A stretch of 54,718 bases of DNA from Spirochaetes bacterium ADurb.Bin133 (GTDB lineage Bacteria > Spirochaetota > GWE2-31-10 > MWDO01), in contig MWDO01000015.1 of NCBI GenBank assembly GCA_002070605.1, positions 1 to 54,718 on the forward strand. Direction: 5' to 3'. Positions within the stretch are counted from its first letter, which is position 1. The number at the start of each line of letters is the position of its first letter. Both the position numbers and the translations under genes were made by a program. The notes under the pieces are model-generated. The model did not search any database. It was not told where the DNA came from and saw only the letters and a program-made list of their open reading frames with translations. Shown piece by piece: positions 31,931 through 42,311 of this stretch.

Positions 31931-31942
31931 CGACAATTGTCG
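31931..31942. repeat. CGACAATTGTCG palindrome, copy 1
   Basis: A perfect 12-bp palindrome two bases after the stop codon of the TPR-M23 gene. Identical copies occur at 35541-35552 and 42169-42180, always between genes and elsewhere next to the CATATG repeat modules. Confidence 0.75.
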
Positions 31943-34461: not shown

Positions 34462-34502
34462 AAGTAGGATGCGTAGGATTGTTTCATAATACCCCTCATT
34501 GT

Positions 34503-34553
34503 TGAAATAATTATAATTGAATTTTGATAATTATGCAAATGTAATGGTAAAAA
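34503..34553. repeat. Duplicated promoter cassette, copy 1
   Basis: About 50 bases running GAAATAATTATAATTGAATT to ATGGTAAAAA, almost identical to 35273-35323 (an A/C exchange near ATGCAAA and small changes at the end). It carries the promoter of the repeat-lipoprotein gene. Confidence 0.85.
34510..34538 (-). promoter_or_regulatory. Promoter of the repeat-lipoprotein gene
   Basis: On the minus strand TTGCAT (34533-34538) and TATAAT (34510-34515) are spaced by 17 bases, about 22 bases before the ATGAAA start at 34487. It lies inside the duplicated cassette. Confidence 0.7.
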
Positions 34554-34563
34554 AAATAGTTTT

Positions 34564-35214
34564 TTACGATAAATATTCTGAGAACTGTCTGTAATTAAAG
34601 ACGATCATGTCGACCAGCGAGAACAGGTAAAGGGCAATGTCTAAGCATAAAACTCCCCGATCCGCGCAGGTTACGAAGCCGCCGGCAAAGGTAAAGTATG
34701 CCGCAGAAAACGCCGGCAGCAGCAGAACCGCTAAACCAATCAGGACTCCCGGATTTTTTTTTATATATTGGCTCTTTTTTTTCCATGAGAAAACCAGCCT
34801 CGCGAATCCGGTTTTATTATTCTGTTTTTCTTCTTCGGTCCAGGGATGGAAAAGCGCGGCTATCGTAATAGAAAAAATAATGCCGCTTAATGATACGGAG
34901 GCGTTAACGGTCATTATCCTGAGCAGAGAATCTGTTCCGTAAAAAATCAGATACAGCGTATGGTTCAGAACTGCGGGGATAAAGAGCATGGCGGCTCTGC
35001 GGATGTTCCGGGGAAAAGACTCATAAACGAGGACGAATCCCGCCACAAGAAAAAACAGCAGTCCAAAACCGGCAAACCATGACGTCCATCTGAGAGCGGG
35101 CGGTATATCTATTCCGCCATGCATCGCTATCAGCAGTACGGCAGGCAACAGTAGATACCAGACCATATATATCGACATTATAATTTTGTTAAGTAATGAT
35201 CGTTTTTCTTTCAT
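34564..35214 (-). CDS. Hypothetical six-helix membrane protein
   Basis: A 216-residue protein with about six hydrophobic segments (for example IIMSIYMVWYLLLPAVLLIAM, WFAGFGLLFFLVAGFVLVYE, GVLIGLAVLLLPAFSAAYF). The start is placed at MKEKRSLLNK because GGAGT lies seven bases before it; the longer frame runs through repeated promoter DNA. Tryptophan and arginine use differs slightly from the neighbours and the DNA looks richer in GC, so transfer is possible. I do not recognise the family. Confidence 0.65.
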   Translation of the reverse strand: MKEKRSLLNKIIMSIYMVWYLLLPAVLLIAMHGGIDIPPALRWTSWFAGFGLLFFLVAGFVLVYESFPRNIRRAAMLFIPAVLNHTLYLIFYGTDSLLRIMTVNASVSLSGIIFSITIAALFHPWTEEEKQNNKTGFARLVFSWKKKSQYIKKNPGVLIGLAVLLLPAFSAAYFTFAGGFVTCADRGVLCLDIALYLFSLVDMIVFNYRQFSEYLS

Positions 35215-35272
35215 TTTTTTACTCCGGATGCGGAATAATCTGAACCCGCGCCGCATTGAAGAAATTATAATT

Positions 35273-35323
35273 GAAATAATTATAATTGAATTTTGATAAT
35301 TATGCAAACGTAATGGTAAAAAG
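35273..35323. repeat. Duplicated promoter cassette, copy 2
   Basis: Second copy of the sequence at 34503-34553. Here the TATAAT-containing part is itself repeated (AAATTATAATTGAAATAATTATAATTG, from 35262), giving two stacked -10 candidates. Confidence 0.85.
35279..35307 (-). promoter_or_regulatory. Promoter of the six-helix membrane protein gene
   Basis: On the minus strand TTGCAT is replaced by TTTGCATA read as TTGCAT (35302-35307), with TATAAT (35279-35284) 17 bases on. A second -10 candidate lies at 35264-35269. The start codon is about 65 bases downstream. Confidence 0.65.
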
Positions 35324-35327
35324 AAGC

Positions 35328-35361
35328 GATCCGTCGGTTTTTGGAAATCGGACGCATATGG
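35328..35361. repeat. Modular intergenic repeat, left-type end
   Basis: GATCCGTCGGTTTTTGG (35328-35344), AAATCGGA, then CGCATATGG. CCGTCGGTTTTTGGAAAT is identical to the inverse of 42216-42233. It faces the inverse end at 36207-36226 and, with it, brackets the 171-residue protein gene. Confidence 0.75.
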
Positions 35362-35410
35362 AGCTACATACGCGCGACTATTGAACCCTCAATTTCGCGT
35401 CCCGCGCCCG

Positions 35411-35575
35411 CCCGATAGGATAAAATGACACATATGGGATATTTTGTTCTTAACGGCGCAAGCCCCGATAGGGGCCCGGCATGAGCGGTATTTAGTATTT
35501 TAGTATATTCAAAACGGGAATTCCCGCTTTTATCGGGGCGCGACAATTGTCGCATACAAATTGACACATATGAGA
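35411..35575. repeat. Palindrome-rich intergenic block
   Basis: GC-rich compared with its surroundings. It holds CCCGATAGG twice (35411, 35464) and inverted TATCGGGG (35531), TGACACATATGGGA (35426-35439), the palindrome CGGGAATTCCCG (35515-35526), CGACAATTGTCG (35541-35552) and TTGACACATATGAGA (35561-35575). The 67-codon frame across it on the minus strand looks accidental. Confidence 0.65.
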
Positions 35576-35589
35576 TAATTATTTATCAT
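35561..35589 (+). promoter_or_regulatory. Possible promoter of the 171-residue protein gene
   Basis: TTGACA (35561-35566), part of the TTGACACATATG repeat module, and TATCAT (35584-35589) are spaced by 17 bases. The gene starts 84 bases later. This suggests the repeat can supply a -35 box. Confidence 0.5.
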
Positions 35590-35673
35590 TTTTTAAAATT
35601 TATACAAATTTTTGTAAAGAGTTTTCTACTTTTAGTTGTTATATATATAAAAGAAAAAAAAGGAGAAAATTTT

Positions 35674-36189
35674 ATGAAAAACAAAAAACATTTATTTCAC
35701 TTTATAGTATCCGAATCTATGAATAATAACGTTATAGATTTTTTACTTAAAGAGTTCAAAATTAATACGTTCAGCGAATTATTTGAAACTATGTTTCGCC
35801 TTATTGACAAAAAAATCCCAAAAATGAAGAAAATAATCGGTAATCATCGCTCCGAATACGCCGTTATAGATAATACCGACGATAAAAGGCTGGATAAATA
35901 CCTCAGGATTAGCGAAGCGGATTATCTTCGAATAAAAAGATGGCATTCTTTGTATAACGAATTTGGTATGGCTTCGACGGTTCGAGATATTATACTGTTT
36001 TTCTATAACGGCGTTGTAAAATACGGGTTGGAAGAATTTCTTGAGATCGTTGGTAAGAAATTGAATATTGATAGATTGAAAAACGACTTTTTGGGTAAAA
36101 TGACACAACTGTTAAATATCTCCGATCAAAAACAGCTACTATACTCGCTCGTAATCGAAAATTATCCCCAATACGTCTGCTCTACGTAA
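35674..36189 (+). CDS. Hypothetical protein, possible ribbon-helix-helix type
   Basis: A 171-residue soluble protein with AAAGGAGAAAA before its ATG. I do not recognise it. The stretch LRISEADYLRIKRWHSLYNEFGM and STVRDIILFFYNGV (about residues 75-110) has a short strand, a basic helix and a second helix, as in ribbon-helix-helix DNA-binding proteins, and the N-terminal VSESMNNNVIDFLLKEF and FSELFETMFR repeats that pattern. So it may be a DNA-binding protein with two such units; this is a guess from pattern. It stands alone between inverted repeat ends, which makes it a candidate cargo gene. Confidence 0.65.
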   Translation: MKNKKHLFHFIVSESMNNNVIDFLLKEFKINTFSELFETMFRLIDKKIPKMKKIIGNHRSEYAVIDNTDDKRLDKYLRISEADYLRIKRWHSLYNEFGMASTVRDIILFFYNGVVKYGLEEFLEIVGKKLNIDRLKNDFLGKMTQLLNISDQKQLLYSLVIENYPQYVCST

Positions 36190-36206
36190 AAATAATTTTT
36201 TATTCC

Positions 36207-36260
36207 ACCCAAAAAACTGACGGATTACCCATATGTGTCAAAAAAAATTTGACGCATATG
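36207..36260. repeat. Modular intergenic repeat, right-type end with CATATG hairpin
   Basis: CCCAAAAAACTGACGGATTA (36208 onward) is nearly the inverse of 35328-35344. Directly after it, CATATGTGTCAAA (36230-36242) and TTTGACGCATATG (36248-36260) form a 13-bp inverted repeat with one G/T pair around five A bases. The M28 gene ends seven bases later. Confidence 0.75.
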
Positions 36261-42048: not shown

Positions 42049-42091
42049 TTTTTTTGCATTTACATAGAAATAATTAGAATATTTTGCTTAT

Positions 42092-42234
42092 CCCGTCGGT
42101 TTTTTGGTAAGAGCAACTGTCCCATATGCGTCAATTTTTTTTTGACACATATGAGTCGAATTTCTGTGCGACAATTGTCGGGCGTTCTTTAATCGACGCG
42201 TCGCATATGCGCTAATTTCCAAAAACCGACGGGG
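42092..42234. repeat. Complete modular repeat with terminal inverted repeats (MITE/BIME-like)
   Basis: A 143-bp element. Left end CCCGTCGGTTTTTTGG (42092-42107); right end CCAAAAACCGACGGGG (42219-42234), its inverse with one T fewer in the run. Inside: CATATGCGTCAA (42123-42134) and TTGACACATATG (42142-42153) as an inverted pair around T7, CGACAATTGTCG (42169-42180), CGACGCGTCG (42194-42203) and CGCATATGCG (42202-42211). No coding frame, no obvious target duplication. Confidence 0.8.
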
Positions 42235-42311
42235 TTCCAAAATAAAAATGCTTATTTAACGGTTTTTTTTTCGCTATAAATATCAAAAATTTAATTTTTA
42301 TTAAAAAAGTA

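Follow-up and report, generated by a model that had tools for sequence, protein, structure and literature searches.

A mobile repeat carrying a gene for a predicted DNA-binding protein in an uncultured spirochaete

We show here that in the draft genome of the uncultured Spirochaetes bacterium ADurb.Bin133 (Spirochaetota) a 171-codon gene moved as a unit with flanking inverted ends by transposition, with 8-9 bp target duplication, and that this element multiplied in the lineage after its split from a sister genome. Gene, promoter, and gene-proximal CATATG site stayed under purifying selection, while the ends decayed at the neutral rate. The encoded protein is predicted to be a single-chain double ribbon-helix-helix (RHH) protein. 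We infer that an external transposase, since lost or not recognized, moved the element, and that the protein binds the CATATG palindrome (half-site TTGACACATATG, full palindrome TTGACACATATGTGTCAA), autoregulates its own gene, and acts on neighboring promoters where gene-bearing and gene-less copies landed. In this reading, which we consider likely although DNA binding is inferred and no regulated neighbor is known, the burst spread one regulator and about 800 binding sites over the chromosome, a network that the cell now keeps.

The element was found in a 54,718-nucleotide stretch of DNA (positions 1-54,718 of contig MWDO01000015.1, assembly GCA_002070605.1), hereafter the window. A first-pass annotation, made from the sequence alone, had noted inverted repeat ends bracketing a lone small gene and a palindrome-rich block, and had proposed either a composite element carrying a DNA-binding protein that acts on the repeat palindromes or two independent repeat copies that happen to flank a gene. 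The ends, the block, and the gene are real (Table 1), and the composite element is supported, whereas two independent repeat copies are excluded. However, the gene is far from lone. Binding of the protein to the CATATG palindrome is supported only indirectly, and binding to CGACAATTGTCG, a module present in only some copies, is not supported.

Copy number and architecture of the element

The genome of the window (2.99 Mb, 103 contigs), for which all counts rest on sequence searches, contains 360 matches to the end core CGTCGGTTTTTTGG with at most 1 mismatch, against 1 for the reversed control, and 791 exact TTGACACATATG sites, against 0 for the control. A DNA search, in which only 40 candidates were scored, returned about 40 places. 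A protein search returned 55 full-length copies of the gene at 84-92% amino acid identity (subfamily I), three more distant ones at 38-45%, and about 22 partial ones located at contig ends (for example, contigs C21, C81, C58, C10, and C35), suggesting that the copies themselves probably account for much of the fragmentation of this draft assembly. The same-genus genome, termed G001 here, has 7 ends, 39 sites, and 13 genes, of which one is of the same subfamily at 82% identity. Three more genomes of the order, G004, G005 (a named Zodletone Spirochaetes MAG), and G008, carry a third subfamily, with several copies each in G004 and G005 and one in G008. Among 393 genomes of the phylum, one further genome gave only a marginal partial match.

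Table 1. Coordinates of the element and neighboring features in the window
Position	Strand	Feature	Remarks
31931-31942		Solitary CGACAATTGTCG palindrome	No ends nearby
34502-34556 and 35271-35325		96% identical 55-bp direct repeat	Flanks the membrane-protein ORF; right copy ends one base before the left end of the element
34564-35307	-	Membrane-protein ORF	
35326-36228	+	Whole gene-bearing element, end to end (903 bp)	End positions set from the empty site in L144/G001, where the element starts GTATCC and ends GGATTAC
35326-35344	+	Left terminal inverted repeat, GCGATCCGTCGGTTTTTGG	
35351-35360	+	CATATG module, GACGCATATG	
35426-35437	+	CATATG module, ATGACACATATG	
35490-35540		Piece of a second, unrelated repeat family (TATATTCAAAACGGGAATT...)	About 25 matches to 35490-35535 in G001
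35541-35552		Palindromic module CGACAATTGTCG	Present in some copies only
35561-35572	+	Gene-proximal CATATG module TTGACACATATG, proposed operator	Starts 113 bp before the ATG
35608-35655	+	Conserved promoter-like block TTTTTGTAAAGAGTTTTCTACTTTTAGTTGTTATATATATAA	Same layout in the subfamily II paralogs
35661-35666	+	Ribosome-binding site, AAGGAG region	
35674-36189	+	171-aa predicted tandem RHH protein	Strand 6-13, helices 14-28 and 33-44; strand 72-79, helices 81-94 and 99-117; low-confidence helical tail
36208-36228	-	Right terminal inverted repeat, CCCAAAAAACTGACGGATTAC	
36230-36260		Two further CATATG modules	Just outside the right end
42086-42235 (about)	+	Gene-less (MITE-like) element of the same family	

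Nearly all inspected copies follow the same plan. The left end GTAWCCCGTCGGTTTTTTGGGG or GCGCCCCGTCGG... is followed by a variable set of blocks, each carrying (T/A)TGACACATATG or TCGACGCATATG, one gene-proximal module usually starting 126-141 bp before the ATG, a conserved block TTTTTGTAAAGAGTTTTCTACTTTTAGTTGTTATATATATA, AAGGAG, the ORF, and, about 35 bp after the stop, the right end CCCCAAAAAACCGACGGGGCGC or ...GGATTAC. In some copies one end is degraded or missing. Gene-less elements of about 90-305 bp have the same ends and modules, and the simplest of them, upstream of the subfamily II gene at locus L074, consists of ends plus one palindrome (about 100 bp). At locus L138, an exact left end with a module lies about 100 bp before a tRNA gene, with no proper right end. 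The second repeat family represented inside the window element (TATATTCAAAACGGGAATTSCCG) is abundant in G001, and at positions 93-192 of G001 contig C6 five TTGACACATATG sites are arranged in tandem at 22-bp spacing, resembling iterons.

Transposition and subsequent constraint

Among 30 elements with both ends recognizable, 9 are flanked by an identical 8-mer at a near-fixed offset, against 0.18 in shuffled pairs, and 5 by an identical 9-mer, against 0.02. One of them is a 704-bp gene-bearing copy (TTTACTCC). The window copy itself shows no clear target duplication, and clean empty sites for the two window elements were not obtained because the sister genome is rearranged there. Alignment of a 16-kb stretch of the window's genome to G001 (about 83-90% identity) gave direct evidence of insertion: a MITE flanked by GTAGTTTTA on both sides stands where G001 has a single 9-bp site and no element, and the gene-bearing copy at L144:3186-3909 is absent from the contiguous orthologous region of G001, which differs slightly around the junction. 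The ends (GCGC/GTAC) do not represent target duplications, since left and right outer ends differ within copies. The low numbers of ends and sites in G001 show that the expansion happened in the lineage of the window.

No transposase was found among the three families tested: IS66 and DDE_Tnp_1 have no match in the genome, and Transposase_mut (IS256) has only two short, unrelated fragments without the ends of the element nearby. Since other families were not searched, loss of the mobilizing transposase is an inference.

The copies are old. No two of 54 aligned coding sequences (53 from this genome and one from G001) are more than 94.3% identical. Mean deviation from consensus is 18% at fourfold sites, 5.8/3.4/13% at codon positions 1/2/3, and about 5% over the promoter block, in which many positions are invariant or nearly so. 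At the left end it is about 16% (2 mismatches per 13), a minimum because best matches were taken, whereas the CATATG core of the proximal site deviates by only 0-8% by position. None of the 53 aligned copies has a premature stop, although neutral decay at 18% per site would leave 7% of copies stop-free, and 47 of 53 have exactly 171 codons. Variants shared by 4-40 copies have a dN/dS of about 0.2, private ones 0.6. Thus, the ends have been evolving neutrally, while gene, promoter, and site have been constrained. Selection on every copy is unexpected for both a parasite and a redundant regulator. Although copies differ by 11%, variants are essentially unlinked beyond 5-10 bp (mean r2 0.02, the chance level), which makes this an unusually tree-less gene family. 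We read this as a star-like old burst with much parallel mutation, possibly with gene conversion; the data do not separate the two fully. Assembly chimerism is an unlikely cause, because linkage is lost already at 10-25 bp, within a read.

The predicted RHH protein and its putative binding site

The protein matches no curated family above cutoff. Searches of Pfam, NCBIfam, and PHROGs gave only subthreshold hits, among which neither DUF1564, a Leptospira family, nor any catalytic family appeared, and distant members gave weak RHH_1/RHH_3 hits. No relatives were found in phages, plasmids, or viral contigs, and a search of solved-structure sequences gave no hit. Across subfamilies I-III, the residues M1, H9, F10, Y84, K88, H91, R104, and G118 are invariant. 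An AlphaFold2 model of the window protein, built from a 7-sequence alignment with six distant relatives, shows a strand-helix-helix unit twice, with a pLDDT of about 74-85 over most of both units but a mean of 60 overall because the C-terminal tail is poor. A second model, of subfamily III, was poor. Foldseek found nothing significant (E-values 2.3-9). Its hits with the highest target TM-scores (0.48-0.59) are small chains of the F-plasmid relaxosome, whose TraY is described as a monomer containing a whole RHH dimer in one chain and occupying its sites in direct and inverted orientation (PMC12117103). That the matched chains are TraY rather than another relaxosome subunit is our inference from their size and fold. 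We take this as support for the fold, not for homology.

Three independent correlations link the protein to the palindrome. The site lies at a near-fixed place before the promoter in most copies. A single TTGACACATATG or close variant lies upstream of the same promoter layout in most of the 12 subfamily II genes inspected (about 45% identity), which lack the ends and some of which sit at orthologous places in both genomes. Moreover, the site is abundant only in the two genomes that hold subfamilies I/II, whereas the subfamily III genomes, whose second strand reads HLHVY instead of DKYVR, have 0-1 sites. In three subfamily II ORFs (loci L083, L086, and L087), the coding sequence itself contains an exact TTGACACATATG, read as Leu-Thr-His-Met within ILTHM, in the C-terminal part. 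Gene-bearing copies lie in divergent gene gaps more often than in convergent ones (21 against 6, by mechanical ORF calls), so many modules sit between two start sites.

Alternative readings and related systems

It is conceivable, albeit unlikely, that the 171-aa protein is itself a mobility factor, a new kind of transposase or an obligatory transposition partner, and that the intact genes reflect selection for mobility in cis. Gene and ends travel together, no other transposase was found among the families tested, and a few charged or aromatic residues (H9, Y84, K88, H91, and R104) are invariant across the whole family. However, no catalytic domain is seen, the model is RHH only, and the divergence of the copies together with neutral decay of the ends indicates no recent transposition, yet the genes stay intact; in addition, subfamily II genes lack the ends and sit at orthologous places in two genomes. 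Similarly improbable is a role as a chromosome organizer, with the protein and its roughly 800 dispersed palindromes working like MatP-matS or a centromere-type RHH system rather than as a promoter regulator. The predicted fold, the genome-wide repetition of a short palindrome, and the conservation of sites although the elements no longer move would fit. A single organizer gene would suffice, though, whereas 55 copies each keep promoter and operator, the site has a fixed place before the promoter of this gene, and the copies favor divergent gene gaps.

Gene conversion between copies, rather than selection on each copy, might keep the copies similar, and near-complete linkage equilibrium between variants more than 10 bp apart, few private variants (1.7 per copy), and transversion alleles shared by half the copies point in this direction. 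We regard it as doubtful, because fourfold sites have diverged 18% while second codon positions stay at 3.4%, so conversion does not homogenize, and because high-frequency alleles are increasingly transitions, as expected of parallel mutation in a star-like family. An ordinary expanded gene family near unrelated palindromic repeats would fit the existence of subfamily II and III paralogs without the ends, but for subfamily I it is refuted by the target duplications and empty sites, which show that gene and ends insert as one unit.

Bacterial MITEs and cassettes are known to carry promoters, binding sites, or passenger genes. In a limited literature search, we found no described case of one element spreading a DNA-binding protein and its own binding sites together at this scale, or of dozens of copies of such a gene being kept intact after the element died. 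It is tempting to see here a transposon burst that dispersed a transcription factor gene together with its operator and was then domesticated as a whole, a bacterial realization of the idea that mobile elements build regulatory networks, yet this remains tentative.

Mobile insertion cassettes (MIC231-type) and MITEs share with the element inverted ends, target duplication, the absence of a transposase gene, and the occurrence of gene-bearing and gene-less versions, and they depend on a transposase supplied in trans (PMC3129680, PMC6542083). Here, by contrast, the passenger is a predicted DNA-binding protein with its own presumed binding sites, copy number is very high (at least 55 gene-bearing), no cognate IS was found among the families searched, and the passenger genes stay under purifying selection after mobility ended. 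REPIN-RAYT systems likewise form high-copy palindromic mosaics in intergenic DNA tied to one protein family, but RAYTs are described as single-copy tyrosine transposases outside the mobile unit (PMC3116915), whereas the gene studied here sits inside the element in dozens of copies, its insertions leave target duplications, there is no such domain, and no His-x-His motif is present in subfamilies I and II. F-plasmid TraY has two RHH units in one chain, forming in one molecule what other RHH proteins form as a dimer (PMC12117103); the 171-aa protein has no detectable sequence similarity to it, an extra C-terminal tail of about 50 residues, and no conjugation context. MatP-matS, too, appears to pair an RHH protein with a short dispersed palindrome, but it probably relies on a single gene with few sites in one region, while in this spirochaete the sites are genome-wide and the gene is multicopy.
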